This document shows, piece by piece, positions 7,061 to 60,200 of a stretch of DNA of 64,000 nt. A model generated the notes under the pieces. That model was not told where the DNA came from, did not search any database, and worked only from the letters and a program-made list of their open reading frames with translations. The stretch is from Loxodes magnus. Lineage: Eukaryota > Ciliophora > Karyorelictea > Loxodida > Loxodidae. Positions within the stretch are counted from its first letter, which is position 1, and every line of letters starts with the position of its first letter. The position numbers and the translations under genes were made by a program. The DNA is taken from NCBI GenBank assembly GCA_946699065.1, contig CAMPDV010000866.1, positions 62,001-126,000 of the forward strand, given 5' to 3'.

Positions 7061-10000
7061 TATTATAGAATGAATAATTAAGCAAATACTTATAAAAATT
7101 TGGATATTTTACAAGAAATTCATACTCTTTATGCTTCTTCAGTTGATCGTAAGTAAATGTTTCCAAAAAACTTAAACAAATTATTATAAATACTAATTTT
7201 TTGAAAGATTAGTTTTAGAATGTTAAGTTTTTAACTCTGTACTTTACTATTGTAAACATTTTATCATATTTGTATACATCAGAAAAATTTATCCATTCGC
7301 ATCTGTTTTATAGATAAATCACCTAGCTTTTTAAACAATGCTATAACTTGATCCAAGTTTATAAAATCTAATGAGGAAACATTCTATAAATATTTTAACT
7401 GATATTCAATTTATTCGATAATTTTCATTAATATAAGAAGAGAACGACATCAAACCCAAATATTCTTTAAAGACTCACATAACTTAGCCAATTGCATCGC
7501 TTATTATTCATCTATTTTAAGAATTTTCACTATTTTTCATTTTCTCATTACTTCTTTTTATTTATTTCAACACGAAAGAACCTTCATGATCAGAATTAAG
7601 TAAGATAGATTATCTTACTATCTTTTTTATAAATACTATGTCTATTATCTAAAATAGTCTAAAGGTTTTTTGAGAAAGGAAAAGATATTGAAATCAAGGT
7701 TTAGCTTATTAAAGGAAAAAAATATTGTTTATAAATTTTTACTAGTTTATATTTAAAAAATTCTTTCTGAAGTATCATTTAAAAATATAATAGAAATTTC
7801 ATAATTTAAGGTTTTATCAGAAGCAAAAATTTTATAAAAAGTCACAAACGTTGTAGATATTACAAAATGATGCTTTTAAAAAATAGCAGATAAAAGCGAA
7901 TTTCGTATTCATTAAAAAAATATTAAAAAATAATAGAAAAGCACAAATTACTTAATTTTTTGGCATATTTAAAATAGATATTTTTTGTAATAGTATTCAT
8001 TTAAAATGATGCTTTCTTTTGTAACATTATTTTAACTTTTTTTAAGAATAATTATATATTTTTTTAAATAAATTATGAAAAAATCCTTATCTTGAGTAAT
8101 TAAAAAGACTTTTAAAAGATTATTGTAAAATATTGTTGCTTTTTTCAATAAAAAATTAAAAGTTGGAACCTTTTTATCTTCGTTAAAAAACTAATTTCAT
8201 AAAATGCATATTCATTGTTTTTTACTTTTTATTTAAGATTTATTTTTAATCTAAATAATGTATTTGGGCAAAATTTATCTAAAGTAATTTCTTTAATCAT
8301 TTTTTTAAATTTTTATATTATAGAATGAATAATTAAGCAAATACTTATAAAAATTTGGATATTTTACAAGAAATTCATACTCTTTATGCTTCTTCAGTTG
8401 ATCGTAAGTAAATGTTTCCAAAAAACTTAAACAAATTATTATAAATACTAATTTTTTGAAAGATTAGTTTTAGAATGTTAAGTTTTTAACTCTGTACTTT
8501 ACTATTGTAAACATTTTATCATATTTGTATACATCAGAAAAATTTATCCATTCGCATCTGTTTTATAGATAAATCACCTAGCTTTTTAAACAATGCTATA
8601 ACTTGATCCAAGTTTATAAAATCTAATGAGGAAACATTCTATAAATATTTTAACTGATATTCAATTTATTCGATAATTTTCATTAATATAAGAAGAGAAC
8701 GACATCAAACCCAAATATTCTTTAAAGACTCACATAACTTAGCCAATTGCATCGCTTATTATTCATCTATTTTAAGAATTTTCACTATTTTTCATTTTCT
8801 CATTACTTCTTTTTATTTATTTCAACACGAAAGAACCTTCATGATCAGAATTAAGTAAGATAGATTATCTTACTATCTTTTTTATAAATACTATGTCTAT
8901 TATCTAAAATAGTCTAAAGGTTTTTTGAGAAAGGAAAAGATATTGAAATCAAGGTTTAGCTTATTAAAGGAAAAAAATATTGTTTATAAATTTTTACTAG
9001 TTTATATTTAAAAAATTCTTTCTGAAGTATCATTTAAAAATATAATAGAAATTTCATAATTTAAGGTTTTATCAGAAGCAAAAATTTTATAAAAAGTCAC
9101 AAACGTTGTAGATATTACAAAATGATGCTTTTAAAAAATAGCAGATAAAAGCGAATTTCGTATTCATTAAAAAAATATTAAAAAATAATAGAAAAGCACA
9201 AATTACTTAATTTTTTGGCATATTTAAAATAGATATTTTTTGTAATAGTATTCATTTAAAATGATGCTTTCTTTTGTAACATTATTTTAACTTTTTTTAA
9301 GAATAATTATATATTTTTTTAAATAAATTATGAAAAAATCCTTATCTTGAGTAATTAAAAAGACTTTTAAAAGATTATTGTAAAATATTGTTGCTTTTTT
9401 CAATAAAAAATTAAAAGTTGGAACCTTTTTATCTTCGTTAAAAAACTAATTTCATAAAATGCATATTCATTGTTTTTTACTTTTTATTTAAGATTTATTT
9501 TTAATCTAAATAATGTATTTGGGCAAAATTTATCTAAAGTAATTTCTTTAATCATTTTTTTAAATTTTTATATTATAGAATGAATAATTAAACAAATACT
9601 TATAAAAATTTGGATATTTTACAAGAAATTCATACTCTTTATGCTTCTTCAGTTGATCGTAAGTAAATGTTTCCAAAAAACTTAAACAAATTATTATAAA
9701 TACTAATTTTTTGAAAGATTAGTTTTAGAATGTTAAGTTTTTAACTCTGTACTTTACTATTGTAAACATTTTATCATATTTGTATACATCAGAAAAATTT
9801 ATCCATTCGCATCTGTTTTATAGATAAATCACCTAGCTTTTTAAACAATGCTATAACTTGATCCAAGTTTATAAAATCTAATGAGGAAACATTCTATAAA
9901 TATTTTAACTGATATTCAATTTATTCGATAATTTTCATTAATATAAGAAGAGAACGACATCAAACCCAAATATTCTTTAAAGACTCACATAACTTAGCCA

Positions 10001-13000
10001 ATTGCATCGCTTATTATTCATCTATTTTAAGAATTTTCACTATTTTTCATTTTCTCATTACTTCTTTTTATTTATTTCAACACGAAAGAACCTTCATGAT
10101 CAGAATTAAGTAAGATAGATTATCTTACTATCTTTTTTATAAATACTATGTCTATTATCTAAAATAGTCTAAAGGTTTTTTGAGAAAGGAAAAGATATTG
10201 AAATCAAGGTTTAGCTTATTAAAGGAAAAAAATATTGTTTATAAATTTTTACTAGTTTATATTTAAAAAATTCTTTCTGAAGTATCATTTAAAAATATAA
10301 TAGAAATTTCATAATTTAAGGTTTTATCAGAAGCAAAAATTTTATAAAAAGTCACAAACGTTGTAGATATTACAAAATGATGCTTTTAAAAAATAGCAGA
10401 TAAAAGCGAATTTCGTATTCATTAAAAAAATATTAAAAAATAATAGAAAAGCACAAATTACTTAATTTTTTGGCATATTTAAAATAGATATTTTTTGTAA
10501 TAGTATTCATTTAAAATGATGCTTTCTTTTGTAACATTATTTTAACTTTTTTTAAGAATAATTATATATTTTTTTAAATAAATTATGAAAAAATCCTTAT
10601 CTTGAGTAATTAAAAAGACTTTTAAAAGATTATTGTAAAATATTGTTGCTTTTTTCAATAAAAAATTAAAAGTTGGAACCTTTTTATCTTCGTTAAAAAA
10701 CTAATTTCATAAAATGCATATTCATTGTTTTTTACTTTTTATTTAAGATTTATTTTTAATCTAAATAATGTATTTGGGCAAAATTTATCTAAAGTAATTT
10801 CTTTAATCATTTTTTTAAATTTTTATATTATAGAATGAATAATTAAACAAATACTTATAAAAATTTGGATATTTTACAAGAAATTCATACTCTTTATGCT
10901 TCTTCAGTTGATCGTAAGTAAATGTTTCCAAAAAACTTAAACAAATTATTATAAATACTAATTTTTTGAAAGATTAGTTTTAGAATGTTAAGTTTTTAAC
11001 TCTGTACTTTACTATTGTAAACATTTTATCATATTTGTATACATCAGAAAAATTTATCCATTCGCATCTGTTTTATAGATAAATCACCTAGCTTTTTAAA
11101 CAATGCTATAACTTGATCCAAGTTTATAAAATCTAATGAGGAAACATTCTATAAATATTTTAACTGATATTCAATTTATTCGATAATTTTCATTAATATA
11201 AGAAGAGAACGACATCAAACCCAAATATTCTTTAAAGACTCACATAACTTAGCCAATTGCATCGCTTATTATTCATCTATTTTAAGAATTTTCACTATTT
11301 TTCATTTTCTCATTACTTCTTTTTATTTATTTCAACACGAAAGAACCTTCATGATCAGAATTAAGTAAGATAGATTATCTTACTATCTTTTTTATAAATA
11401 CTATGTCTATTATCTAAAATAGTCTAAAGGTTTTTTGAGAAAGGAAAAGATATTGAAATCAAGGTTTAGCTTATTAAAGGAAAAAAATATTGTTTATAAA
11501 TTTTTACTAGTTTATATTTAAAAAATTCTTTCTGAAGTATCATTTAAAAATATAATAGAAATTTCATAATTTAAGGTTTTATCAGAAGCAAAAATTTTAT
11601 AAAAAGTCACAAACGTTGTAGATATTACAAAATGATGCTTTTAAAAAATAGCAGATAAAAGCGAATTTCGTATTCATTAAAAAAATATTAAAAAATAATA
11701 GAAAAGCACAAATTACTTAATTTTTTGGCATATTTAAAATAGATATTTTTTGTAATAGTATTCATTTAAAATGATGCTTTCTTTTGTAACATTATTTTAA
11801 CTTTTTTTAAGAATAATTATATATTTTTTTAAATAAATTATGAAAAAATCCTTATCTTGAGTAATTAAAAAGACTTTTAAAAGATTATTGTAAAATATTG
11901 TTGCTTTTTTCAATAAAAAATTAAAAGTTGGAACCTTTTTATCTTCGTTAAAAAACTAATTTCATAAAATGCATATTCATTGTTTTTTACTTTTTATTTA
12001 AGATTTATTTTTAATCTAAATAATGTATTTGGGCAAAATTTATCTAAAGTAATTTCTTTAATCATTTTTTTAAATTTTTATATTATAGAATGAATAATTA
12101 AACAAATACTTATAAAAATTTGGATATTTTACAAGAAATTCATACTCTTTATGCTTCTTCAGTTGATCGTAAGTAAATGTTTCCAAAAAACTTAAACAAA
12201 TTATTATAAATACTAATTTTTTGAAAGATTAGTTTTAGAATGTTAAGTTTTTAACTCTGTACTTTACTATTGTAAACATTTTATCATATTTGTATACATC
12301 AGAAAAATTTATCCATTCGCATCTGTTTTATAGATAAATCACCTAGCTTTTTAAACAATGCTATAACTTGATCCAAGTTTATAAAATCTAATGAGGAAAC
12401 ATTCTATAAATATTTTAACTGATATTCAATTTATTCGATAATTTTCATTAATATAAGAAGAGAACGACATCAAACCCAAATATTCTTTAAAGACTCACAT
12501 AACTTAGCCAATTGCATCGCTTATTATTCATCTATTTTAAGAATTTTCACTATTTTTCATTTTCTCATTACTTCTTTTTATTTATTTCAACACGAAAGAA
12601 CCTTCATGATCAGAATTAAGTAAGATAGATTATCTTACTATCTTTTTTATAAATACTATGTCTATTATCTAAAATAGTCTAAAGGTTTTTTGAGAAAGGA
12701 AAAGATATTGAAATCAAGGTTTAGCTTATTAAAGGAAAAAAATATTGTTTATAAATTTTTACTAGTTTATATTTAAAAAATTCTTTCTGAAGTATCATTT
12801 AAAAATATAATAGAAATTTCATAATTTAAGGTTTTATCAGAAGCAAAAATTTTATAAAAAGTCACAAACGTTGTAGATATTACAAAATGATGCTTTTAAA
12901 AAATAGCAGATAAAAGCGAATTTCGTATTCATTAAAAAAATATTAAAAAATAATAGAAAAGCACAAATTACTTAATTTTTTGGCATATTTAAAATAGATA

Positions 13001-14793
13001 TTTTTTGTAATAGTATTCATTTAAAATGATGCTTTCTTTTGTAACATTATTTTAACTTTTTTTAAGAATAATTATATATTTTTTTAAATAAATTATGAAA
13101 AAATCCTTATCTTGAGTAATTAAAAAGACTTTTAAAAGATTATTGTAAAATATTGTTGCTTTTTTCAATAAAAAATTAAAAGTTGGAACCTTTTTATCTT
13201 CGTTAAAAAACTAATTTCATAAAATGCATATTCATTGTTTTTTACTTTTTATTTAAGATTTATTTTTAATCTAAATAATGTATTTGGGCAAAATTTATCT
13301 AAAGTAATTTCTTTAATCATTTTTTTAAATTTTTATATTATAGAATGAATAATTAAACAAATACTTATAAAAATTTGGATATTTTACAAGAAATTCATAC
13401 TCTTTATGCTTCTTCAGTTGATCGTAAGTAAATGTTTCCAAAAAACTTAAACAAATTATTATAAATACTAATTTTTTGAAAGATTAGTTTTAGAATGTTA
13501 AGTTTTTAACTCTGTACTTTACTATTGTAAACATTTTATCATATTTGTATACATCAGAAAAATTTATCCATTCGCATCTGTTTTATAGATAAATCACCTA
13601 GCTTTTTAAACAATGCTATAACTTGATCCAAGTTTATAAAATCTAATGAGGAAACATTCTATAAATATTTTAACTGATATTCAATTTATTCGATAATTTT
13701 CATTAATATAAGAAGAGAACGACATCAAACCCAAATATTCTTTAAAGACTCACATAACTTAGCCAATTGCATCGCTTATTATTCATCTATTTTAAGAATT
13801 TTCACTATTTTTCATTTTCTCATTACTTCTTTTTATTTATTTCAACACGAAAGAACCTTCATGATCAGAATTAAGTAAGATAGATTATCTTACTATCTTT
13901 TTTATAAATACTATGTCTATTATCTAAAATAGTCTAAAGGTTTTTTGAGAAAGGAAAAGATATTGAAATCAAGGTTTAGCTTATTAAAGGAAAAAAATAT
14001 TGTTTATAAATTTTTACTAGTTTATATTTAAAAAATTCTTTCTGAAGTATCATTTAAAAATATAATAGAAATTTCATAATTTAAGGTTTTATCAGAAGCA
14101 AAAATTTTATAAAAAGTCACAAACGTTGTAGATATTACAAAATGATGCTTTTAAAAAATAGCAGATAAAAGCGAATTTCGTATTCATTAAAAAAATATTA
14201 AAAAATAATAGAAAAGCACAAATTACTTAATTTTTTGGCATATTTAAAATAGATATTTTTTGTAATAGTATTCATTTAAAATGATGCTTTCTTTTGTAAC
14301 ATTATTTTAACTTTTTTTAAGAATAATTATATATTTTTTTAAATAAATTATGAAAAAATCCTTATCTTGAGTAATTAAAAAGACTTTTAAAAGATTATTG
14401 TAAAATATTGTTGCTTTTTTCAATAAAAAATTAAAAGTTGGAACCTTTTTATCTTCGTTAAAAAACTAATTTCATAAAATGCATATTCATTGTTTTTTAC
14501 TTTTTATTTAAGATTTATTTTTAATCTAAATAATGTATTTGGGCAAAATTTATCTAAAGTAATTTCTTTAATCATTTTTTTAAATTTTTATATTATAGAA
14601 TGAATAATTAAACAAATACTTATAAAAATTTGGATATTTTACAAGAAATTCATACTCTTTATGCTTCTTCAGTTGATCGTAAGTAAATGTTTCCAAAAAA
14701 CTTAAACAAATTATTATAAATACTAATTTTTTGAAAGATTAGTTTTAGAATGTTAAGTTTTTAACTCTGTACTTTACTATTGTAAACATTTTA
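7061..14793. repeat. Tandem array of a 1,255-bp unit, six full copies plus a 203-bp part
   Basis: Units begin at 7,061, 8,316, 9,571, 10,826, 12,081 and 13,336, with a partial unit from 14,591 to about 14,793. Every step is exactly 1,255 bp. Units look identical apart from rare single bases; for example a G in units 1 and 2 is an A in all others about 16 bases in. The block copy at 55,837 has only one full unit plus the same partial unit. On the minus strand the array forms the downstream end of the LINE reading frame. Because 1,255 is not a multiple of three, reading through the array changes frame at each unit. Confidence 0.98.
7279..7587 (-). CDS. Small helical protein encoded in each 1,255-bp unit
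   Basis: Each unit holds a 102-codon minus-strand frame from ATG (7,587) to TGA (7,279-7,281) if internal TGA is read as Trp and TAR as Gln. The same frame recurs at 8,534-8,842, 9,789-10,097, 11,044-11,352, 12,299-12,607 and 13,554-13,862. It starts MKVLSCWNKQKEVMRKW, continues with KLCESLKNIWVWCRSLL and ends KKLGDLSIKQMRMDKFF. Predicted character is mostly amphipathic helix with no signal peptide. No family is recognised. An alternative is that it is a piece of the LINE tail, because a neighbouring frame continues downstream as KYRVKNLTFQNQSFKKL. Which TGA ends translation is a guess. Confidence 0.4.
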
Positions 14794-17700
14794 TGCTTAT
14801 TTCTTCATTATTGCTTTAATAAATATTTTTTTTTATATTTCATTTTTTAATTATTTTATAATTTTTTATTATGATTTTTTTTCTTCTATTCAAAGTCTTA
14901 AATTCTTTTCTTTTTTTTGTATTTTTGTTTTTTTTTTATATTTTTTTTTAATTTGATTAATTTTTTTCGCTTTTAGTTTATCTTTTTTTGTTTTCTTTCG
15001 ACTTTAATCAGTAAGTTAATTATCTTTCTTATTTAAAACTATTTTATTTTCTTTTTCTCCTTTTTAATTTATAATTTGTAATCCACTTCTATATTTTGTT
15101 TATATTCTTTATGTTACTTTAACTAATTTGTTTTAATTTTATTTTTTTCATCTTCATCTATTACATTCCTTATCTTTTCTTCAATAAAATCTGTTTTTAT
15201 TTTATTTTCAGTTTTTTAATTGATTTCTTTTTATTGTCTAACCATATTTAATCAACTTCTTTTAATTTTTAATGTTATGATGATTTTACTTTAGTAAAGT
15301 TATTTAGATATGTTTTATTCTAAATTCTTCACATGAGCAAATTATATCTGATAAGTTTGTTATTTTATGAGTTTTTTTTTATTTAGCAAGTGAAAGTTCT
15401 CATTTTTAAAATGAAAATATTTTACTTGTTTAAATTTTTTATTTATTTTTGAGATTTTTTTATTTGAGAAAATCTTTTTTTTTATTTTATACTTTATCTA
15501 TTATTTTTTTGTAGTAAACTTATATGTAATTCTTAGAAGATTTTCTTTGAAGAATTCATTTATGTTTAAAAGTGAGATCTTTTTTACACTTTTGAAAAAA
15601 AAAATTTATAACAATAATTTTATAGATTTTTTTTAATTTTAAAATAAAATAGTTTTTTACATCTATAACATTAAGAACTGTTTCTTTCAATTATTCACAT
15701 TAATAAATGTTTTTAATGCTTTTTAATTATAATCGTTGATCTCAGCAAAATTTAATTACTCTTGCTATAATCTAATATTTTATTTCTTCTTTTTTGCTTT
15801 TTCAATTTCTAATAATTCTAGTAATCTGGATATAAGTTCTTTTGAAATATTTTTTCTTTCATATCAAAATATCACAAATAAAATTTCAAAAAATGTTTAT
15901 AAGTCCTTAATCATATTATATAAGGCATTTTAAGTCATAATTCCCAATCATTTACAATAATTAAACTCTTATATTAGAGAAGCATATACATTTAAATTTA
16001 TTCGAATTTATCATACTCTCCACACATACATGGGATTATTAATATGATATGGCGATTTTAGAGATTTTTTCGAAAATTATAGGATTGAGTTAAAAGTTCA
16101 TATATACTAATTATTTTCTGTCTAAATTATTTGTTCAATTTAGTGTAAGTAATTACTATAAATTTGTTAATATTACTGCTCAGTATATATTTTAGCTGTT
16201 TTCATTCTCTTAAATTTTTGAGTAGGATATGCTATAGAAAAATTGTTTTATTTTGTCTCTTATATACTTAGTAAAGGTGTTTTAAATTTTACTAATCTTG
16301 AAATTCTACAGATCGATACTATAGAGGGCTGATAATTGTTAAATTTGTTCATAGTATTGAAGTCCTTTTTTCTAGTTGGTAATGAAAAGAGAGCCTATTG
16401 TCGATCTAGGAAAATAAATGTTTTCTTATTTATTTTATATTAGAATTTAAAAAACTTTTTTGACATAATGAGATTAAAAGTTAATCAGTTCAGGTCTATA
16501 TAACATGATTCATTTAAAGTGGAATTACTGCTTAAAATACTTTTTTTGCAATTATTCTCATGCTTGACTCAACTCTTTTCAAAACTCTAGTTATTCCTTT
16601 TAATACATCATGATACTAGTTCTCCGCCATATTCTGCTTTAGGTAATTTAAAAAGTCTGCATACAGTTCTAAAATGTCAAGGAGTCACATCCTTATATCT
16701 CATAAGTTAACAAAAAGCTTTTTTCAATGCAGATAAATACTTGAACGCGACTTCTTTACAATGGGGATTCAAATTCTTCTTCTGATGTAGAATTACACCT
16801 AAATATGTAACTTTTTCTTTTTTAAATAATTGGTTAATTTACTAATCATAAATTTCAGTTTTATTATTTCTGATTTTTCTTTAAAATTTAATTGCATTCA
16901 GATTTGGTAACATTGATCTTTAAGTAAGTTTATGGAAAAATCTTACTCGCTTCATTTATTACTCCTACATCTACTTTGCGGATTTGGAAAGAAGAATCAG
17001 ATCATCTACCCATTTTTACAAGCGAAGCTAATACTCGAATCTGGCATTTAAATCCCAATAAGGTACTTTTACTTTCCAAATATCTAATTACTATGTCATA
17101 ATACAACAATGCTAAAGCTGGTCCATGCGAACTTCCTTACATAAATCCATTGTTGTATTATAATGTATCTTTCCATCTTGCATAAATTAAAAATTTAAGT
17201 TTTTGTAAAACGATTCTAAGGCTATTATTATTCCAATTGGTAGTTTACTATCTTAATTTAATCAAACAAAAATCTTCTTTCTATTGAGTCAAACATTTTT
17301 TCAACATCTCAGTGTTGCTATCAATTTAGCCTACTTTAGCACGTTTCCGATAGTTATCAAATATTTGGTATATTATCAAATCTATTAAGTTGTTTACCTA
17401 TTTTTCATAAATCCCATTTATAAAGGATGAATTAAATTTTTCAAATAAATCAGAGGGAATAGTTTTTTTGTTAAAGCTTTATCATATAGTTTTAGAAAAG
17501 TATTAATAAGAGAAATAGGTAGTCAGTTTTCCCAATCATCTTTATTTCCTTTTTTAGATTTTGGAATTATCACCGATGTATTTAATTCCTAAGGGATTCT
17601 TCCAAGTCTTAACATTTTATTCAGAAAAGAATGAAGAATTATTAAAAAATATTATCCAACAGATTTCAGAAGTTCACCTTTTATTCCGTCTGGACCAGCT

Positions 17701-18300
17701 GCTTTTTCGTTCGGAATTTCTTTTATAATTTCTAATATTTCTTGTATGGTAAAAAGATAAAATCCTTGTAAATATGAGAGTGGATAATCTTTAATTTCTT
17801 AAATACTATTGTATATTTTATCTATTTTTTAATTACTAAGACTTATCTATTATTAAATTAGATTAGAATATTTGTTAAAAATAAAATTCTCCCATGAATC
17901 AATTTTTTATTTTTTATTTCTTAATTAAATTTTATTTAATTTCTATTTTAGAATTCAGAATTTTCTTAGCATGTGAAAATATTTCCTTAGCATCTCCTTT
18001 AAGAAGAAGAAATTTTTTTCTTTATTTTTTTATATTTTCATTGATTATACGTGAAGTTTTTCAAAAGTCATTTTGTTGCTTCATGAAAACTAGTTACTTG
18101 CTAGTTTATTCTTCCAGATTTAATATGAGCTTCCTTTTATTCTGAGTTAGCTCTTTTTGCCTCTATATATTTCTTTGTGAGATCTCGAGGAAGTTTGTTT
18201 TAATTTGATTCTGGAATATACGAACTTAATGTTTAATCAGCATTGTCTTAAATATTACTTTTGATGACATTCATATTAATCTTTGAGATTATCTTAATCA
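14591..18300 (-). mobile_element. Non-LTR retrotransposon (LINE) ORF2: reverse transcriptase with long basic tail
   Basis: Order on the minus strand: a linker-like stretch (LTKKYIEAKRANSEQKEA, near 18,160), then RT motifs KAAGPDGIKGELLK (about 17,700), PKSKKGNKDDWENWLPISL (about 17,560-17,500; both bracketing W of WENW, TGG then TGA), MGFMKNRQTTQQIW (17,417), motif A DVEKMFDSIERRF (17,308), motif B QGSSHGPALALLYYD (about 17,135), catalytic WVDDLILLS (about 17,010) and TYLGVILHQKKNLNPH (about 16,800). Motif A, motif B and the rest sit in three different frames, so the gene is broken by at least three indels; copy 2 shares the same frame pattern. From VDD onward a single frame runs about 800 codons, through a Lys/Gln-rich tail, into the partial 1,255-bp unit. 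No endonuclease or RNase H motif was recognised. Confidence 0.9.
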
Positions 18301-29909: not shown

Positions 29910-31360
29910 AGAATTTGAATTAGTATTATTATTAATTAAGCTACCTAACTTCAATTAACAAATAATTCTAGTTTTTCAATGATTTTAACAGATATGAGTT
30001 AAACTCGCATAGCATTAAAATAAAATAACATGATATAAAATAATATAAAAAACAAGTTAAATAAGTATTATAAAGTGTGAAGCATAAAAATCAAATAGCA
30101 ATGCATAAAAGATTAAAATATATGTCCTAATATATTCGCTTTTTCACAAATTTTAAATAATTTTAAATTTTCTTTCTTTAATAATTTTTTAGTTAAAAAT
30201 AAAGTCCTTTTTTCTTCATTTCTTTACAATATCACTCGTCGTTTAATTTATTTTCATATGTAATTTTTTCGAATTTTTTGCTATTTTACTTTTTATTTAA
30301 TTATATATCATAAAAATTTAGATTCGCGTTAATAAATTGTGTTTTTTTAATACTTCTTTTCTTTTTTGGTTTTAAAATAAAGTATTTCTTGATAAAATTT
30401 CGTAAGTAAGTATTAATTAGAGTGAAAATAAATACAAAGTTTTAAAATTTATTTTTTTAATTTTTTCTTCTTTCCAAATAATAAGAATTTAATTTTTCTT
30501 ATTTTCATTTTAAATTATATTGCTTTTTTATTTTTTTCCTTCAATAAAATTTTATTTTATTTTAAAGATTTTATTGAACTTTTTTAGCTTTTTATATTTA
30601 TTTATTTTTTATTTTTTTATCTTTATTTTATTAAAGAACTTGAGGAATTTATTTTTTTTATTAAATTTAACAATTTTAGAAAACTTATTTGTTTTACTTA
30701 TTTTTATAACCACTAAGTTTGTCAATTTTTTTTATATTTTATAAATTATTTGCTCTTTTGATTGTTATAAGCTTATATCCTTAAATTTTTTGATAGATCT
30801 ATTAGTTTTTTTAATTATATTTTTATTTAAATTTTTTTCTTTTTATGATTTTATTTTTTTTATTTATCTTCCTTTATTTTTTTTATTCTCTAGATTTTTT
30901 AGTATCATTAAATAAAAAAAATTTTGGTTTTAATTGAATATTTTTTTAAATTTAGAGTTTTAAAATCCTTTTTTTTTAATTTTTAATATTATATTTGATA
31001 ATAACTTTTTCCAAAAAAGAATTTATTATTTTTAGATTTGATTTTAGACCTACTTTTAGATATTTTAAAGATCATTATAAAGACTTATTGATTTTTTACT
31101 AAATTTTAAATAATAAGCTATATTTATAATTTTTAATTAAGATAGCTATATTGGATTCTTTAAAGTATTTATATAAACAATATAGAATCTTTTTGCAAAA
31201 ATTAAATAAAAGCTTTCTATGACTGTACTTTGATGAATTCTATTATATATGTTTTATGATATATTAAAGGATGCAATGTAAAAGAAAATTTAAATGCATA
31301 TATTTTATAAGTCTCTTTTATGATATTTTAATAAGTAATAACTTTTAATTTAAAGTTAGA
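29910..31360. other. AT-rich spacer with T-rich tracts
   Basis: Mainly low-complexity DNA, T-rich from 30,440 to 31,010. No frame with protein character. It holds the region downstream of the channel gene (stop at 31,362), but no polyadenylation or terminator signal can be told from the background. Confidence 0.6.
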
Positions 31361-31361
31361 G

Positions 31362-34300
31362 TCATTGGTTTTAGGACTTTCCACTTAACATCCCAATAAG
31401 CGAGTCCAATTTTACTTCAAGCGAGCCCATCTTTTGATCAATGGAACTCGCTTGAAGTTTAAAAACTTCAACTTCTTTCATTTTCTCCTCAATAAAATTA
31501 ATCTTTCCTTCAAGAGATTCTAGTTTACTAATCTTTCCATCAATAGAATTAGTTTAATTCTTAAGAAGCTATATTTCTTTTACTTTCTCATCAATGGAAT
31601 TAATCTTTCCCTCAAGAAAGTTTAATTTATTAAACCTTTAATCAATTTTTTTGCTTATTTAATCTTCAGATTTTTTGATTCCCTCTCTCACTTCTGCTAC
31701 TTTTCCGTCCCATACTTAGTCCTATTTATAATAGTTTTCACATATATGAAGATATTGCTCCTTATTTTGAGGATTTCTTAGTGAAAGGAACTGTTCTACC
31801 TCAAGAATAACTTGAGTCATTTCTCGATAATCATAATAAGTTTGTAAAAGCTAGAACTTATCAAAAGAATCTCCTAGAATTGAGATGATCATATTAAGCA
31901 TTAGTATTACATTTAAAATAACTGCAAAGATGAATGTAATATGCACTATATCCAATTAGTCTTTATCCAAAACTCCTGAGTCTCCTGCAATCAAATCAAA
32001 TGAGGAAATTCAAATGCTTTCAAATGTTATTTCCTCACCCTTTGCTGTAACGTATAGAAGGCCAAATACTAGTGTCGTATAAACCATTATAGAAAGGAAA
32101 TATCTTATTTTGTAAAGGGAATCCAAAATCAGTTATTTGTAATATCTCGTTCCCGAAAATGCTCTAAAGCTCGTAATTCCACGTAATAAGTTCAATAATA
32201 GAACAACCCAGTTAAAGGATTCTATTTTGATATCGCTAAGGCAAAAATAGATCCATGGAATCATACAAATAAATCTAGAAATATCAATAAGGTTCCAAGT
32301 ATCCTTAAAATATTCTAATCCCGATAGCTTAATTTAAAGTAACTCCCAAGTAATCAAAGCAAGATTTACTAGCATTAATAAAACCAAGGAAGGATAAAAA
32401 AAGAAAAAGGGTTTAATCATCAAAACAACAATAAAGAATAAGTTAAGTCATATCAAAAAGGAAATAGAAATGATTCAAAATCATAATTCATTTCACTTAA
32501 AATTAATATAACTTCTTAATATCTTATGCTTGTATAAATCTTTATCTTATGAGTCTAAGAAAGACTTTAGTAAATCGATGCTTTAATCAGAACCAGCTAC
32601 AGAAGGTAATTTGAACCAAGAAGTAGATATTTTAAGATACTCTTTATCTTAATCATTACTTTTTGACTTATCCTTATGAGATTTTTCCTTTTTACAATTA
32701 AATTAACACCAAGTAGCTTAAGGTAGATCATCTTAAAAAAGAGAGAAACTTTAGGTATGCATGTTATCAAACTTGATGCGTTAATCTTATTAAATGCTAA
32801 GAAGGCTACGAAGATTTTTGTTGAAGTACAATTGATTATTAAGAAAAGGGCTTAAAAAAGTTGAAGAATTTCTTATAATTAGAGGGAAATCACGCTAAAG
32901 AGATAAAAATTAAATTCTGTTTTAGAAATCATCAGTTTGCAATTAAGATATCATATCTAAAAGAAAATCAGTAATACTTTAATGTTTGTAATAAATAGAG
33001 TAAAGTAAAGGAGAGTGACCTAAAAAGTCTGAACTTATCTAAATATCAGGAAACTATTCAAAAGCCTTCTTAATAGAATCTATCTCTCCCAAAAAGCAAG
33101 CGAAATGAAGAGGAGTGAAGCCAAAAGAAGTTAATTAGCAGTTTCAATAAGAAATTTAATCAAATAATTAAGAAACAACGCAGTTCCAAACACTTATGTA
33201 AGAAATAATGGAATAATTTTGCAAGGGAATAAAATACAAATCCTGATAAAATTAGTAAAATTTTTAAATTCTATGATCTTAAGAATATAAATCTGTATTT
33301 AAAACTTAAGTCTAAAGCTACCATAATTTTATAGTATTGTCAGAAGAAGAACTAAAAAGAAAAGATCCATTGGGACTGAAAGTTACACAGGTAACTGAAT
33401 TTTAATGTCCTTCAAGAGTTACTATTTCTTTATAAGTTTAAAGGTTTCAAAGTTTGATAGTTCTGTCATCAGAAGCACTTGCGAGTGTAGATCCATCGGG
33501 GCTGAATGCAACCCAGGTAACTTTATTTTAATGTCCTTCGAGAGTTACTATTTCTTAATGAGTTTAAGTATTTCAAAGTTTGATTGTTTTGTCATCAGAA
33601 GCGCTTGCAAGTATAGATCCATCGGGGCTGAAATTTACACAGGTAACATAAGATTTATATCCTTCGAGAGTTACTATTTCTTTATGAGTTTAAGTATTTC
33701 ATAGCTTGATAGTTCTATCTTCAGAAGAACTAGCGAGTATAGATCCATCTGAGCTGAAAGCAACACACATGACATAAGATTGATGTCCTTCGAGTGTTGC
33801 TATTTCATTATAAGTCTAAAGGCTTCAAAGTTTTATAGTTTTGTCAAAAGAAGAACTAACTAGTGTAGATCCATCGGGGCTGAATTTTACACAGGAAACA
33901 ATTTATTGATGTCCTCCGAAAGTGAGGATTTCATAATAGTCTTTAATATCCCATAGTTTGATAGTATTGTCATAGGAAGAACTAGCGAGTTTAGAGTCAT
34001 CGGGGCTAAAAGTTACACAAGAAACATAAGCTTTATGTCCTACGAGAGTTACTATTTCTTTCTGAGTTTTAAGATTCCAAAGTTTTATAGTTTTGTCATA
34101 GGAAGAACTAGCGAGTGTAGATCCATCAGAGTTGATCGTAACACAGATAACTTAGTTTTAATGTTCTTGCAGAGTGATGAAGTCTTTATGAGCTTAAATA
34201 TTTCAAAGTTTTATAGTATTATCATCAGAAGTACTAGCAAGTATAGCTCCATCAGGACTGAATTCAGAATAAGTAATTTTATTTTAATGTCCGCGTAATG

Positions 34301-35981
34301 TGACGATTTATTTATGAGTTTAAAGGTTTCAAAGTTTTATAGTATTATCATAGGAAGAGCTAGCGAGTGTAAATCCATCAGGGCTGAAAGTTACACAAGT
34401 AACTTAATCTTAATGTCCTTCAAGAGTTATGATTTCTTCATAATTTTTAAGATTTCAAAGTTTTATAGTCTTATTAACAGATGAGCTAGCAAGTGTAGAT
34501 CCATCGGGGCTGAAAGTAATTCATGTAACTTAATCTTAGTGTTTTAGAGTAACAATTTCATAATGAAATTAAAGGTTCCAAAATTTTATAGTATTGTCCC
34601 AAGAAGAACTAGCGAGTAAAAATCCATCAGGACTGAATCTAACACAAGTAATTTTTTCTTAATGTCCGATTAGAGTGACAATTTCTTCATTAGTTTAAAG
34701 GTTTCAAAGTTTGATTGTTCTTTCAGTAGAAGAGCTAGCAAGTGTAAATCCATCGGGACTAAAAGTTACACATGTAACAGGTCATTAATGTCCTTCGAGA
34801 GTGGTTATTTCTTTATGAGTTTAAAGGTTTCAAAGTTTTATAGTATTGTCATGGGAAGAACTAGCAAGTATAGATCCATCGGGACTGAAAGCCACACAAA
34901 TAACTGAATTTTAATGTCCTTCGAGAGTGGTGATTTCTTTATGAGTTTAAGTATTTCAAAGTTTTATAGTTCTGTCAAACGAAGAACTAGCGAGTGTAGA
35001 CCCATCGGGACTAAAAGCAGCACAAGTTACTACAGATTTATGTCCTCCAAGAGTTACTATTTCTTTATTTGTTTAAAGGCTTCAAAATTTTATAATATTG
35101 TCATCAGAAGAACTAATGAGTGTAGAGCCATCGGGACTGAACATAACACAAGTAACTTAAGAGTTATGTCCTTGTAGAGTAACAATTTCTTTACGAGTTT
35201 AAAAATTTCATAATATGATAGTCTTGTTTCAAGATGAGCTTGCAAGTTTAGTTCCATCGGGGCTGAAAGTAACGCAGGTAATATTATCTGTATGTCCGTG
35301 TAGAATACCGATTTCTTTATATGTTTAAATATTTCATAGTTTGATAGTTTTGTCGGAGGAAGAACTAGCAAGTGTAGATCCATCGGGGCTAAAAGTTACA
35401 CAAGTAACTGAATTTTAATGTCCTTCGAGAGTTACTATTTCTTTATGAGTTTAAATGCTTCAAAGCTTGATTTTATTGTCATAGGAAGAACTAGCGAGTG
35501 TAGATCCATCGGGGCTAAATGTAGCGCAAGTTACTGAATCATAATGTCCTTTGAGAGTTACTATTTCTTAATGAGTTTAAGTATTTCATAGTTTGATAGT
35601 TTTGTCGGAGGAAGAACTAGCGAGTGTAGATCCATCGGGGCTGAAATTTACACAGTTAACGTAAGATATATGTCCTTCGAGAGTTACTATTTCTTTATGA
35701 GTTTAAAGATTTCAAAGTTTGATAGTTCTGTCATCAGAAGCACTAGCGAGTGTAGATCCATCGGGACTGAATGCAACCCAGGTAACTTTATTTTAATGTC
35801 CTTCGAGAGTTACTATTTCTTAATGAGTTTAAGCATTTCAAAGTTTGATTGTTTTGTCATCAGAAGCGCTTGCAAATATAGATCCATCGGGGCTGAAATT
35901 TACTCTAATAGATGTTTTTTGATTTATTTAAATTTCTTTTAAATTTTTTATTAGGTTTTAACTCCATTAAACATGTTTCAT
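31362..35981 (-). CDS. WD40-ankyrin-TRP-like ion channel protein
   Basis: ATG at 35,981 to TGA at 31,362-31,364: 1,539 residues in one frame, no intron needed. Residues about 28-890 hold 21 WD40 repeats of about 42 residues, consensus [20 protein letters not shown] then W and [11 protein letters not shown], enough for three seven-blade propellers. Residues about 950-1,010 are two ankyrin-like repeats ([18 protein letters not shown]). Residues about 1,160-1,375 are a six-helix channel: [57 protein letters not shown], a pore segment [17 protein letters not shown] (W = TGA) and [17 protein letters not shown], the last very like the S6 end of TRP and polycystin channels. The C-terminus (about 1,395-1,533) is a coiled coil. 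It likely forms a cation channel in a membrane, possibly ciliary; ion and gating are unknown. Confidence 0.92.
33301..35905 (-). repeat. In-gene tandem repeat, 126-bp period (21 WD40 units)
   Basis: The GATGGATCT-type core recurs 21 times between 33,365 and 35,888 at about 126-bp spacing (42 codons). Units are more alike in DNA than is usual for WD40 repeats, and 33,405-33,640 is nearly identical to 35,670-35,905, eighteen units away. This points to recent unit exchange within the gene. Confidence 0.9.
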
Positions 35982-53161: not shown

Positions 53162-55836
53162 ATGCCAAAAATCAGATTAGAAATTTCTCAGCATAAAAAA
53201 GTAGTTAAAAAAATTATAGAGGTTATGACCAGAAAAAGATACGTAAAAGGTCGCCCACTACATCGAGACTACCATTATTGAAGAGAAACTTAGGAAATAG
53301 ACTAATAATATAATGAACTCAGATATCTCTGATTTTGCCACCAGGACTAGGTGGAACTATAAGAAAATTAAGAACATAGAACAGTTAGTAATAAACTTAG
53401 ACTCGTAGAGTTGACGGAAAGCATATTTATTTCAAATATGACGATGAACGATTTTGTGGATGCAGAATCTTAAGTCCAATCACAAAAAATTTAATTATAC
53501 TAAAGAAAAAAAAGTAATGCTGATATTGCTGGAGTTCTGGTCATACTATAAGATACTGACAAGTAGTGGCCAAATTAATTGTTAAATAAAATGGAATAAT
53601 ATATTTGGTCTTCAACAATGAAGAAAGATATTAATAATTTGCGTAATTCAGGGAATGAACATTCTAAGATGTTAGAATTCCTATCTAAGCAAGAAACTAA
53701 TCAGAATACTTTGATGTTCATAACTACTTTGTATACTTCATAATAAACGAATATTCAAACATGAGGTAAGTAATGGATATAATGAGATAATATGGAAAAT
53801 TTAGAGGAGAGGTATAGCATACATACCCAAACACTACAATGCTAACAAATAGCAGCGTAGTTTTTCTATATTTAAATGATATAGACCAAACAAAAGAAAT
53901 AGCAGTAATAGACCTTAACGGAAACAAAATTAGAATACAAAGCACAGTCAATTTTATTTGTTTCTTATGCAAATTGAAAGGACACACAAGCCAACAAGGA
54001 TGAAAAGTGACAGCAGCAGAAAGAAAAAAACTACATAAAAGGGAATTAGAGATGCTTGAAGGAGAATATATATGAACAATAAAAAACTAGAATTTAAAAA
54101 AATAAAGCAAAAAAGAAGATAATTGAAGAAAGATAATAAATGAATATAGAGGTAGTAAAGGAAAAATAAAATAAAATAAAAGAGGAGAATAGAATAGAAA
54201 AATAATTAAAAAAACTAGAAAATTAAATAAGAAAAAGTTTTTTATGTCAAAAGAATAAATAAGAATTATTTTTCATCTAAATGGAATTGGATATTCGTAA
54301 GACCCTAAGATAGAGAAATGTTAAAGAACTAAATAAAATAGAAAATAATCAACTTAATAATAAGATACTATATAATACAAATAAGAGAAAAGGATAGGAT
54401 AAGTGATGGTTAAAAAGCTGAACCCTAACAAAAGAAATAAGAAACAAAAAAAATAGTATAATGGAAAATGTAAGGAAAAGTTTAAATAGAAATAATATAG
54501 AGAAGGTCTGTAAAAAAATGTCAGGTTTATAGAAAGTTTTCTTCTCTAAAAACACCAAAATAGAAGAAGCAGCAAAGACAGAGGAGGAGAAGTAGCTAAC
54601 GCAATCCATGCAAATGGAGAAAACTTGTAAGCCCAAAACAGAAGTACGTAAGTATGAATTGTAATAAGTGATACCATAAACATATTAAGAAGTTGAAATT
54701 ACTTAGGAACCTATAATTGGTAAAGCTCATAAAACAGGTTAAAGATAAAATCCCTGGTAAGAAGAAAATAGAAAACTTAAGGACTTGGTTAACGAGCTCA
54801 ATAAGTAAATAAAGGAACTGAAAATGTAAACTGAAAGAGATATCCTATATAATGAGCAATGCATCTTAAACTATGAAAAAGAAGCCTAAGGAATGTGGAA
54901 TTTGATTCGAGAAGAGCAAAATATTACGTAACGACTATAATAACAAATATAAGTCCATATTGGGTAACAGTAAACCTTTGTAACGTAACCATCACGAATA
55001 ATTAACCCTGATTTAATGGAGCTGGAACTTCCTATTGTTCCTCCATAACTGCCAGCAAAATTATTACCACTTAGAAAAAAATGTTATAATTGCGGCAGTC
55101 AAAAACATCTTTATCGATAGCGCAAAATTTTTCAAATGCAAAAAGATAATATAGATAAAAATAAGAAGCCAAAAAATAAGCATATTTTTAAGAGTAAGAG
55201 AGATTTTGAAGAAATGAAAAAGCTAGAATACAGAGAATCTTTTGCAAAAGCAATAAAAAGTAGCATAAATTCAAGAGTATAAATATATGAGATAGTTTTC
55301 AAAGTAATGAGACATTAATTTTAAAGTTGGTAGAAAAACTAATTCAAAAACCCTCTATAAATAGAAAGAATGTAAAAATACAGGGGATAGGATTTCATCC
55401 TGAAACTTTTTCTAACATTTTACATTATTATTATTATAGAGATGATCTGTACAAACGATCATAGATACTTTTTTAATGTAAAATCAGATGATAGAGTATG
55501 GAATTTAGTCTAAGAAATTTGAACATTACCCTTGAAAATAAATGTTGAGAGTAAGAGGCAGATTGAAAGTAACAATGAAAAAAGTAGAAGAATTAATTTT
55601 TGATTTATACCTATTCAAAGAGGATAACTTTATTCTTAATTAATATTTCACTGTTAAAAAATTATAATTAAAATAGAGAAAAAGCAAAACTTTACAGATG
55701 ATAGAAAATAATATAAAAAGTAAAAAAAAATTTTAATTATGCAATTCGAGAAATTAGAGTATACGTTAAATATAGTAAAAAAAATAAAAAAAAGATAACA
55801 GAATACAATATAGCGAGACATTATTCGATAAACTCA
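53162..55836 (+). mobile_element. Zinc-knuckle gag/ORF1-like protein, block copy 2
   Basis: Counterpart of 4,579-7,060. ATG at 53,162 gives MPKIRLEISQHKKVVKKI. Both Cys/His boxes are kept (CKLKGH near 53,970, CYNCGSQKH near 55,085). It differs from copy 1 by about 4-5% at the start and clearly more towards the array, and the lengths differ. It is an old element with a few breaks. It ends at the same array junction as copy 1. Confidence 0.6.
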
Positions 55837-57291
55837 AATTATAGAATGAATAATTAAACAAATACTTATAAAAATTTGGATATTTTACAAGAAATTCATA
55901 CTCTTTATGCTTCTTCAGTTGATCGTAAGTAAATGTTTCCAAAAAACTTAAACAAATTATTATAAATACTAATTTTTTGAAAGATTAGTTTTAGAATGTT
56001 AAGTTTTTAACTCTGTACTTTACTATTGTAAACATTTTATCATATTTGTATACATCAGAAAAATTTATCCATTCGCATCTGTTTTATAGATAAATCACCT
56101 AGCTTTTTAAACAATGCTATAACTTGATCCAAGTTTATCAAATCTAATGAGGAAACATTCTATAAATATTTTAACTGATATTCAATTTATTCGATAATTT
56201 TCATTAATATAAGAAGAGAACGACATCAAACCCAAATATTCTTTAAAGACTCACATAACTTAGCCAATTGCATCGCTTATTATTCATCTATTTTAAGAAT
56301 TTTCACTATTTTTCATTTTCTCATTACTTCTTTTTATTTATTTCAACACGAAAGAACCTTCATGATCAGAATTAAGTAAGATAGATTATCTTACTATCTT
56401 TTTTATAAATACTATGTCTATTATCTAAAATAGTCTAAAGGTTTTTTGAGAAAGGAAAAGATATTGAAATCAAGGTTTAGCTTATTAAAGGAAAAAAATA
56501 TTGTTTATAAATTTTTACTAGTTTATATTTAAAAAATTCTTTCTGAAGTATCATTTAAAAATATAATAGAAATTTCATAATTTAAGGTTTTATCAGAAGC
56601 AAAAATTTTATAAAAAGTCACAAACGTTGTAGATATTACAAAATGATGCTTTTAAAAAATAGCAGATAAAAGCGAATTTCGTATTCATTAAAAAAATATT
56701 AAAAAATAATAGAAAAGCACAAATTACTTAATTTTTTGGCATATTTAAAATAGATATTTTTTGTAATAGTATTCATTTAAAATGATGCTTTCTTTTGTAA
56801 CATTATTTTAACTTTTTTTAAGAATAATTATATATTTTTTTAAATAAATTATGAAAAAATCCTTATCTTGAGTAATTAAAAAGACTTTTAAAAGATTATT
56901 GTAAAATATTGTTGCTTTTTTCAATAAAAAATTAAAAGTTGGAACCTTTTTATCTTCGTTAAAAAACTAATTTCATAAAATGCATATTCATTGTTTTTTA
57001 CTTTTTATTTAAGATTTATTTTTAATCTAAATAATGTATTTGGGCAAAATTTATCTAAAGTAATTTCTTTAATCATTTTTTTAAATTTTTATATTATAGA
57101 ATGAATAATTAAACAAATACTTATAAAAATTTGGATATTTTACAAGAAATTCATACTCTTTATGCTTCTTCAGTTGATCGTAAGTAAATGTTTCCAAAAA
57201 ACTTAAACAAATTATTATAAATACTAATTTTTTGAAAGATTAGTTTTAGAATGTTAAGTTTTTAACTCTGTACTTTACTATTGTATACATT
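55837..57291. repeat. 1,255-bp repeat, one full unit plus the same partial unit
   Basis: The unit starts at 55,837 and again at 57,092, exactly 1,255 bp apart. The partial unit ends near 57,285-57,291, matching the array end in copy 1. The full unit is nearly identical to the six in copy 1; I noticed one clear base difference near 56,138. Confidence 0.97.
56055..56363 (-). CDS. Small helical protein of the 1,255-bp unit, block copy 2
   Basis: The same 102-codon frame as at 7,279-7,587, with ATG at 56,363 and TGA at 56,055-56,057. It is unchanged as far as I can read, while flanking DNA differs strongly between the block copies. No family recognised. Confidence 0.4.
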
Positions 57292-60200
57292 TTATTTTGT
57301 TTATCCAATATTCCTTTAATAAATTTTTTTTTTAATTTCATTTTTTAATTATGTTATAATTTTTTATTAAGATTTTTTTTTCTATTTAAATGTCTTTAAT
57401 TCTTTTCTTTTATTTTGTTTTTTTGTATTTTTTTTATAAATATTTTTTTTATGATTAATTTTTTATGCTTTTATTTTATCTATTTTTGTTTTCTATCGAC
57501 GTTAATCAGTATGTTTTTTATCTTTCTGATTTAAAACTATTTTTTTATTCTTTGTTGCCTTTTTAATTTATTATTTGTAAACCTGTTCTATTTTTTTTTT
57601 ATTTTCTTTGAGATACTTTAACTAATTTGCTTTAATTTTACAATTTTCATCTTCATCTATTACATTCCTTATCTTTTCTTCAATAAAATCTGTTTTTATT
57701 CTATTATTTTCAGTTTTTTAAATGATTTCTTTTATATTATCTAACCATATTTAATTAACTTCTTTTATTTTTTCCTAATGATATTATTATTTTACTTTTG
57801 TAAAATTAATTAGATATGTTTTATTCTAAATTCTTCACATGAGCAAATTATATCTGATAAGTTTGTTATTTTATGAGTTTTTATTTAATTAGCAAGAGAA
57901 AGTTCTCATTTTTAAAATGAAAATAGTTTTACTTGTTTAAATTTTTTATTTATTTTTGAGATTTTTTTATTTGAGAAAATCTTATTTTTTATTTTATACT
58001 TTATCTATTATTTTTTTGTAGTAAACTTATATGTAATTCTTAGAAGATTTTCTTTGAAGAATTCATTTATGTTTAAAAGTGAGATTCTTTTGGCACTTTT
58101 GAAAAAAAGATTTTTATAACAATAATTTTATAAATTTTTTTTAATTTTAAAATAAAATAGTTTTTTACATCTATAACATTAAGAACTTTTTCCTTCAATT
58201 ATTGACATTAATAAATGTTTTTAATGCTTTTTAATTATAATCGTTGATCTCAGCAAAATTTAATTGCTCTTGCTATAATCTAATATTTTATTTTTTCTTT
58301 TTTGCTTTTTCAATTTCTAATAATTCTAGTAATCTGGATATAAGTTCTTTTGAAATATTTTTTCTTTCATATCAAAATATCTCAAATAAAATTTCAAAAA
58401 ATGTTTATAAGTCCTTAATCATATTATATAAGGCATTTTAAGTCATAATTCCCAATCATTTACAATAATTAAACTCTTATAGTAGAGAAGCATATACATT
58501 TAAATTTATTCAAATTTATAATACTCTCCACACATACATGGGATTATCAATATGATATGGCGATTTTAGAGATTTTTTCGAAAATTATAGGATTGAGTTA
58601 AAAGTTCATATATATTAATTATTTTTTGTCTAAATTATTTGTTCAATTTAGTGTAAGTAATTACTAGAAATTTGTTAAGATTACTGCTCAGTATATATTT
58701 TGGCTGTTTTCATTCTTTTAAATTTTTTAGGAAGTTGTATTATAGAAAAATTGTTTTATTTTGTCTCTTATATACTTAGTAAAGGTGTTTTAAATTTTAC
58801 TAATCTTGAAATTCTACAGATCGATACTATAGAGGGCTGATAATTGTTAAATTTGTTCATAGTATTGAAGTCCTTTTTTCTAGTTGGTAATGAAAAGAGA
58901 GCCTATTGTCGATCTAGGAAAATAAATGTTTTCTTATTTATTTTATATTAGAATTTAAAAAACTTTTTTGACATAATGAGATTAAAAGTTAATCAGTTCA
59001 GGTCTATATAACATGATTCATTTAAAGTGGAATTACTGCTTAAAATACTTTTTTTGCAATTATTCTCATGCTTGACTCAACTCTTTTCAAAACTCTAGTT
59101 ATTCCTTTTAATACATCATGATACTAGTTCTCCGCCATATTCTGCTTTAGGTAATTTAAAAAGTCTGCATACAGTTTTAAAATGTCAAGGAGTCACATCC
59201 TTATATCTCATAAGTTAACAAAAAGCTTTTTTCAATGCAGCTAAATACTTGAACGCGACTTCTTTACAATGGGGATTCAAATTCTTCTTCTGATGTAGAA
59301 TTACACCTAAATATGTAACTTTTTCTTTTTTAAATAATTGGTTAATTTACTAATCATAAATTTGAGTTTTATTATTTCTGATTTTTCTTTAAAATTTAAT
59401 TGCATTCAGATTTGGTAACATTGATCTTTAAGTAAGTTTATGCAAAAATCTTACTCGCTTCATTTATTACTCCTACATCTACTTTGCGGATTTGGAAAGA
59501 AGAATCAGATCATCTACCCATTTTTACAAGCGAAGCTAATACTCGAATCTGGCATTTAAATCCCAATAAGGTACTTTTACTTTCCAAATATCTAATTACT
59601 ATGTCATAATACAGCAATGCTAAAGCTGGTCCATGCGAACTTCCTTACATAACTCCATTGTTGTATTATAATGTATCTTTCCATCTTGCATAAATTAAAA
59701 ATTTAAGTTTTTGTAAAACGATTCTAAGGCTATTATTATTCCAATTGGTAGTTTTACTCTCTTAAGTTAATCAAACAAAAATCTTCTTTCTATTGAGTCA
59801 AATATTTTTTCAACATCTCAGTGTTGCTATCAATTTAGCCTACTTTAGCGCGTTTCCGATAGTTATCAAATATTTGGTATATTATCAAATCTATTAAGTT
59901 GTTTACCTATTTTTCATAAATCCCATTTATAAAGGATGAATTAAATTTTTCAAATAAATCAGAGGGAATAGTTTTTTTGTTAAAGCTTTATCATATAGTT
60001 TTAGAAAAGTATTAATAAGAGAAATAGGTAGTCAGTTTTCCCAATCATCTTTATTTCCTTTTTTAGATTTTGGAATTATCACCGATGTATTTAATTCCTA
60101 AGGGATTCTTCCAAGTCTTAACATTTTATTCAGAAAAGAATGAAGAATTATTAAAAAATATTATCCAACAGATTTCAGAAGTTCACCTTTTATTCCGTCT

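Follow-up and report, generated by a model that had tools for sequence, protein, structure and literature searches.

In Loxodes, UGA has been described as the only stop codon and, where it lies far from the poly(A) tail, as a tryptophan codon as well (PMC11441545). The same paper reports short 3' untranslated regions and a depletion of coding UGA and UAA, not of UAG, over about 20 codons before the stop. A Loxodes Trp-tRNA(CCA) with a 4-bp anticodon stem has been described (PMC13092985), and the published gene predictor for the species allows UGA as the sole stop. Here we analyze a gene on the minus strand of a 64,000-nucleotide stretch of Loxodes magnus DNA (assembly GCA_946699065.1, contig CAMPDV010000866.1, our C866, positions 62,001 to 126,000), hereafter the window, within which all positions are counted. 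Judged from its sequence, this gene very probably encodes 21 WD40 repeats, ankyrin repeats, a TRP-like channel domain and a coiled coil. Within it, in-frame TGA almost certainly stands for tryptophan, and TAA and TAG for glutamine. The codon that ends the gene is the main subject of this analysis: it is likely that UAA is a second context-dependent stop in Loxodes magnus, read as glutamine inside genes and serving as the conserved terminator of this family of WD40-ankyrin channel proteins and also of a few genes outside it.

The codon at the end of the gene

An earlier note on this stretch, made by a model from the letters alone, had ended the gene at TGA 31362-31364, but the paralogues favor the TAA three codons earlier, at 31371-31373. 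The gene belongs to a large family, as a genome search with its channel region, in which 104 of 1217 first-look candidates were scored, returned 114 matching stretches. We aligned the C-termini of 40 paralogues, 37 of which were readable (C205b, C205c and C13 had no match to the C-terminal motif). The codon directly after the conserved C-terminus (+1) was TAA in 34 copies, TGA in two and TTA in one, and never CAA, CAG or TAG. Three codons further on (+4), TGA was found in 24 copies, TAA in 11 and another codon in two. In 11 of the 37 copies, two of which (C216 and C898) have nearly the same sequence, no in-frame TGA occurred within the next 20 codons. Ten further C-terminal stretches outside the 40, inspected by eye, had TAA in nine cases, the remaining one (L085) being unreadable. 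Parsimony over 36 rows placed TAA at the root of the +1 column, with two changes from TAA to TGA and one from TAA to TTA.

Consistent counts came from a genome pattern search for the C-terminus followed by any YRR codon, in which 87 matches comprised TAA in 80, TGA in four, TAG in two, TGG in one and CAA or CAG in none. A reversed-pattern control gave 6 matches against these 87, and membership in the family is unconfirmed for at least 13 of the 87, including both TAG matches, the TGG match and two of the TGA matches. From these alignments, the +1 column appears to behave like a stop rather than like a glutamine position.

The sequences on the two sides of this TAA evolve differently. The 12 codons before it show a coding pattern (identity 0.77, 0.85 and 0.63 at codon positions 1 to 3), and after it the paralogue alignment contains indels of 1 and 5 bases and the coding pattern is gone. 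A conserved ACTCT element beyond the end is displaced by one base, towards it in C110 and away from it in C237, and is therefore not read in a fixed frame. An element TGACTCTARAATTAAAA after the stop is kept in distant paralogues, with CTC in an unchanged position in 32 of the 37 copies, and is perhaps a 3'-end or RNA-stability signal. We dropped TRACTCTARAATTAAAA as a candidate for a general 3' signal, as the genome has 38 places with it and 9 with the reversed pattern, which fits a family-specific element. Upstream of the end, TAA made up 3 of 37 glutamine codons in the last 30 codons of 23 representatives and 150 of 309 further upstream, and no TGA was present in the last 100 codons of the same, related sequences.

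Copies that have no nearby TGA look like intact genes. Eleven of 12 computed paralogue pairs had ratios of nonsynonymous to synonymous substitution (dN/dS) between 0.17 and 0.44, indicating purifying selection, and the twelfth pair was too close to tell. The pairs that include TGA-less copies gave 0.24 to 0.44, again with one pair too close to tell.

As controls, we read the ends of other genes in the genome. TGA followed the C-terminus of histone H3 (5/5) and of actin (5/5, five of 96 matches), and both eRF1 copies (2/2) end in TGA. The histone H4 pattern gave TGA after nine of ten matches; the tenth, YGFGG-TAA on C24, is not H4 in its translated context and was not counted as an H4 gene with a UAA stop. 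For Ras-like proteins, 20 C-termini were fetched of 150 matches, of which 18 were readable and two unreadable, and in 17 of the 18 TGA followed the prenylation motif directly or one to three residues beyond it. The exception, L137, has TAA directly after the CAAX box CLIF, and its next TGA comes 23 codons later. A CAAX box functions only at the very C-terminus of a protein. For four of the 18 (L121, L131, L132 and L133), the frame in which the C-terminus was read differs from that of the domain match, suggesting a short intron or a frameshift. In three others (L118, L119 and L136), a TAG stands just before the TGA; no UAG stop was seen at +1 in the 37 family C-termini or in the 18 readable Ras-like ones. 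Variants of histone H3 end in ...EKHLTDM-TAA (L093), ...EKHLTDM-TAA-TAA-TAA (L096, with no TGA in about 26 further codons) and ...EKQLTDV-TGA (L094). They are possibly another small family in which TAA and TGA replace each other at the stop, and are suggestive only, their C-termini being too little conserved to decide. Across these controls, UGA is the main stop, with UAA at most a minority stop that would have become fixed in the channel family.

The strongest alternative keeps the published reading unchanged. In it, UGA 31362-31364 is the only stop of the gene, TAA 31371-31373 is glutamine, the protein ends ...SGKSQNQ, and those paralogues that have no TGA close by either continue to a UGA further downstream or are copies expressed at low levels. 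Several points argue for it and so against a UAA end. UGA is the only stop in the published account of the species (PMC11441545), the Loxodes eRF1 motifs gave UGA-only specificity in chimeric assays (PMC4695839), and inspected transcripts of Parduczia had UGA where a stop was expected (PMC4967479). The control genes end in TGA with the single Ras-like exception, and the published rule can explain the 24 of 37 paralogues with TGA at +4, the window gene among them. A column that holds only TAA is in itself weak evidence of a stop, as three of 21 conserved glutamine columns of the family have TAA as their sole glutamine codon. In one of the three, a TGA and a TGG occur as well, so Gln/Trp exchange occurs inside the protein. 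The low TAA share near the C-terminus counts related rows, and one nearly all-CAA column contributes to it. Against the published reading, however, stand the purifying selection on the TGA-less paralogues, the absence of CAA, CAG and TAG from the +1 column (the two TAG of the pattern search being unconfirmed matches), the failure of the sequence after the TAA to evolve in frame, and CLIF-TAA in a Ras-like protein. We consider the unchanged reading unlikely, at a level that still deserves weight. A combination of the gene architecture, the sense meanings of the three codons, the published UGA mechanism and a UAA end is, in our judgment, probably the best overall explanation of the locus.

Under this preferred explanation, UAA and UGA would both have two meanings in Loxodes, being sense codons far from the end of the messenger RNA (mRNA) and stops near it. 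Translation of the window gene would then likely end at the UAA, with the UGA three codons on as a back-up, and a UGA would often be kept a few codons downstream of UAA in this role. For UGA, the published accounts propose that release is weakened and that the Trp-tRNA(CCA) with its 4-bp anticodon stem can read the codon, termination taking place at codons near the poly(A) tail. Both eRF1 copies of the genome (L035 and L036) align over their full length to human eRF1 (1dt9, E 1.3e-158) and carry RAQNIKS, FLCENTF and alanine at the position of human Ser70, the same three entries that Table 2 of PMC4695839 gives for Loxodes striatus. Neither ARAGORN nor Rfam found a tRNA in the window. An Rfam tRNA search of the genome gave 63 places, listed without sequence, and a pattern search of the genome for the Trp-tRNA gave no match, which does not mean that this tRNA is missing. 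A 2022 paper on the karyorelict code reportedly allowed for a UAA stop in a minor fraction of transcripts, and in the passages of the literature that we searched no other paper showed a UAA stop for Loxodes.

If UAA does act in this way, the Loxodes code is ambiguous at two codons and not at one, and an eRF1 with motifs described as UGA-specific must still release at UAA near the poly(A) tail. Existing gene models for the species would extend past the true end of such genes, which matters for gene prediction, and the depletion of coding UAA near gene ends reported in the 2024 genome paper would be easier to explain. The approach itself looks for codons that substitute for one another at the C-termini of a large family of paralogues, and in this way the stop meaning of a codon is tested without transcripts.

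Sense meanings of TGA, TAA and TAG

To tabulate the codons that encode the conserved tryptophan of the WD40 repeats, we aligned the 21 units by codon. This column holds TGA in 17 units and TGG in four, with no other codon, which bears out the earlier claim that it is mostly TGA with several TGG. Two of the TGG sites that had been named, 33,321-33,323 and near 33,950, are correct, but those placed near 34,072 and 34,573 were 5 bases off. Seventeen of the 20 in-frame TGA codons of the aligned units sit in this one of 42 columns, far beyond chance. As duplicates, the units are not independent of one another, and a tree of the units, several of whose nodes are weakly supported, needs three TGA/TGG changes. 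Units 1 (35772-35897) and 19 (33507-33632) are 98% identical though far apart in the array, which points to recent intragenic conversion or duplication. With a loose pattern, the tryptophan column of the repeats in 30 paralogue loci gave TGA 140 times, TGG 13 times and other codons 31 times; these loci include near-identical copies, and the other codons include misplaced picks.

The earlier note had held that the repeats fix the meaning of TGA without outside data, as a direct proof of the code. The interchange can indeed be seen inside one gene if TGG is granted to be tryptophan, but "direct proof" is too strong because the units are duplicates, the tree has only three changes and the repeats alone leave TAA and TAG unfixed. 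The repeats are also silent on the second meaning of TGA, as a stop.

Comparisons between gene copies give stronger evidence that TGA and TGG are interchangeable. Five copies nearly identical to that in the window depart from it in 10 to 15 of 898 codons. At 33951-33953, where unit 16 of the window has TGG, three of them carry TGA, and one shows the same kind of TGA/TGG difference at 33186-33188. Given the exchange at 33951-33953 and the 140 TGA codons over the paralogue loci, it is not reasonable to attribute TGA in the tryptophan column to sequencing error, an objection that the earlier note had allowed for. Among 25 representative paralogues with less than 97% identity, we defined tryptophan columns as those with at least 70% tryptophan; nine of the 12 such columns hold both TGA and TGG and three hold one of them, and further codons occur in three of the 12. 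Of the variable tryptophan columns, the one with the best coverage (TGA 30, TGG 6) requires four changes on the family tree. Copy C6433 was omitted from both the conserved-column analysis and the tree.

TAA and TAG had been said to fill glutamine-like positions in the same repeats. This is true, but the repeats alone are a weak basis for it, since the lysine codon AAA also occurs in the main TAA column (TAA 16, AAA 3, TAG 2, no CAA or CAG), and the paralogues are needed. The next glutamine-like column of the repeats holds TAA 11 times, AAA three times, CAA twice and five other codons. In the 25 paralogues, 17 of 21 conserved glutamine columns (at least 80% glutamine) have more than one glutamine codon and four have a single one. 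Among the five near-identical copies, one has CAA for TAA at 31767-31769. At 33318-33320, two carry GAG in place of TAG, a difference that a silent change would not explain.

That TGA encodes another amino acid, such as cysteine or arginine, or selenocysteine, is possible in principle, as DNA alone shows only the interchange of TGA and TGG. It is nevertheless very improbable in view of the exchange with TGG in tryptophan columns, nine of 12 of which hold both codons, the swap of the two at one site between near-identical copies, the published tryptophan assignment for Loxodes (PMC11441545) and its demonstration by mass spectrometry in Condylostoma (PMC4967479). A decayed gene or sequencing error, with the stops as damage, might be suspected in a repetitive region and an amplified segment, but is just as hard to credit given that 17 of 20 TGA codons fall in one column, that purifying selection is family-wide and that paralogues on many contigs show the same pattern. 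Tryptophan as the meaning of TGA in Loxodes magnus is already published, and the present gene is an added illustration only.

The use of TGA inside genes is uneven. Actin, with 43 near-identical full-length matches (on contigs C266, C437, C524, C707, C711, C1162 and others), has zero in-frame TGA codons, and the tryptophan codons of eRF1 are all TGG (4/4 in each copy). Highly expressed genes may avoid TGA.

Gene architecture, paralogues and genomic setting

A single reading frame of the minus strand, with codon first bases at 35999-3k, carries the gene (Table 1). Open frames carry no weight here because there is no dedicated stop, and the architecture was assigned by homology. Composition-based gene finding called 31825-35895 as coding on the plus strand; this call is wrong by homology and was not relied on.

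Table 1. Coordinates of the channel gene and its features in the window
Feature	Position	Strand	Basis and remarks
WD40-ankyrin-TRP-like channel coding region	31371..35981	-	Translation with TGA = Trp and TAA/TAG = Gln; Pfam; end is the favored TAA (31362 if TGA is the stop)
Start ATG, uncertain	35979-35981	-	Open frame continues upstream; the near-identical copy on C402 has another ATG about 43 codons further up
21 WD40 repeat units, 126-bp period	33255..35897	-	PF00400, 21 stretches; Tandem Repeats Finder (TRF) array 33327-35898
TGG in Trp column, unit 11	34578-34580	-	Repeat alignment
TGG in Trp column, unit 15	34077-34079	-	Repeat alignment
TGG in Trp column, unit 16	33951-33953	-	Repeat alignment and copy comparison; TGA in 3/5 near-identical copies
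TGG in Trp column, unit 21	33321-33323	-	Repeat alignment
Ankyrin-repeat region	32907..33128	-	phmmer best E 1.4e-15 (designed and natural ankyrin proteins); Pfam Ank_2 E 1.5e-5
TRP-like / ion-transport membrane domain	31851..32477	-	Pfam Ion_trans E 7e-4, below cut-off, window copy
Coiled-coil tail up to the conserved C-terminus	31374..31667	-	C-terminal alignment; coiled-coil type Pfam matches
TAA directly after the conserved C-terminus, proposed stop	31371-31373	-	Paralogue C-terminal alignment, tree, genome pattern search, dN/dS
Downstream TGA, three codons past the proposed stop; terminator in the published reading, back-up in the favored one	31362-31364	-	Translation; paralogue alignment
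Conserved element TGACTCTAACTTTAAATTAAAA, probably 3' untranslated	31343..31364	-	Paralogue C-terminal alignment; genome pattern search

The WD40 repeats are the clearest part of the gene, as PF00400 scores 818 bits over 21 stretches, above the family cut-off, and 20 of the units are 42 residues long and one is 41. Twenty-one repeats would be enough for three seven-bladed propellers. In the ankyrin region, Pfam Ank_2 reaches 25.9 bits on the window copy, just under its cut-off of 27.3. The match to Ion_trans has E of at most 0.01 in 11 of 12 paralogues (best 6e-8), and in the eight paralogues printed out the channel is preceded by WD40 repeats and ankyrin-like sequence. Some results weigh against the TRP-like assignment, which for the window's own copy leans on weak matches: a PDB profile search with the channel region gave TRPV1-type matches only, and these were insignificant (E 0.036), and a single-sequence structure model of the region was poor (predicted local distance difference test score, pLDDT, 57). 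By homology, the product probably forms a cation channel in a membrane and bears a large binding head, and the coiled coil may help the channel protein to assemble.

In TRPA/TRPN-like channels, ankyrin repeats precede the ion-transport domain and a coiled coil follows it, an order that the window gene probably shares. Unlike these channels, it has a long array of near-identical WD40 repeats at its N-terminus, and no description of a WD40-TRP fusion turned up in the literature searched.

Contig C866 bears three copies of the channel gene, at 44898, 93374 (window 31374) and 135988, spaced by 48.5 and 42.6 kb, and the window therefore apparently belongs to a large tandemly amplified region. A 1255-bp tandem repeat, shown by 300-base stretches, occupies 7043-14872 (seven registers) and 55819-57373 (two registers) of the window, and unequal lengths of these arrays may account for the two gene spacings. 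The window also holds two copies of a reverse transcriptase fragment that use the same code, both on the minus strand, at 59048-60259 (RVT_1, E 1.3e-9) and 17149-17750 (E 8e-6, below cut-off).

WD40 repeats at 126-bp spacing span tens of kilobases on contigs C1503, C119, C9, C1832, C620 and C272, as seen in a first look at the genome that gave 99,269 WD40 candidates, 150 of them scored. TRF calls the window's own WD40 array a 2.6-kb tandem repeat. A published rule counted TRF regions of at least 1 kb as low-complexity, and coding WD40 arrays would probably be masked by it.

Comparison with described codes

The reading proposed for this gene agrees with the karyorelict code (NCBI table 27) in that UAA and UAG are glutamine and UGA is tryptophan far from the mRNA end and a stop near it, and coding UGA and UAA are likewise rare just before the end. 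It departs from that code as given in PMC11441545 at one point: there UGA is the only stop, whereas the channel family appears to end at UAA.

Condylostoma magnum, as described in PMC4967479, resembles Loxodes as read here in that all three canonical stop codons are also sense codons, the stop is set by position near the transcript end, and UAA-ended genes were inferred from alignments. Condylostoma magnum stops at UAA, UAG and UGA alike, whereas the 37 family and 18 readable Ras-like C-termini contained no UAG stop. Blastocrithidia (PMC12153298) shares with this reading a UGA that encodes tryptophan together with a change at eRF1 Ser70, and a UAA that is both sense and stop. It differs in that UAR is glutamate, UAA is the only stop and Ser70 is replaced by glycine, where the Loxodes eRF1 copies have alanine.

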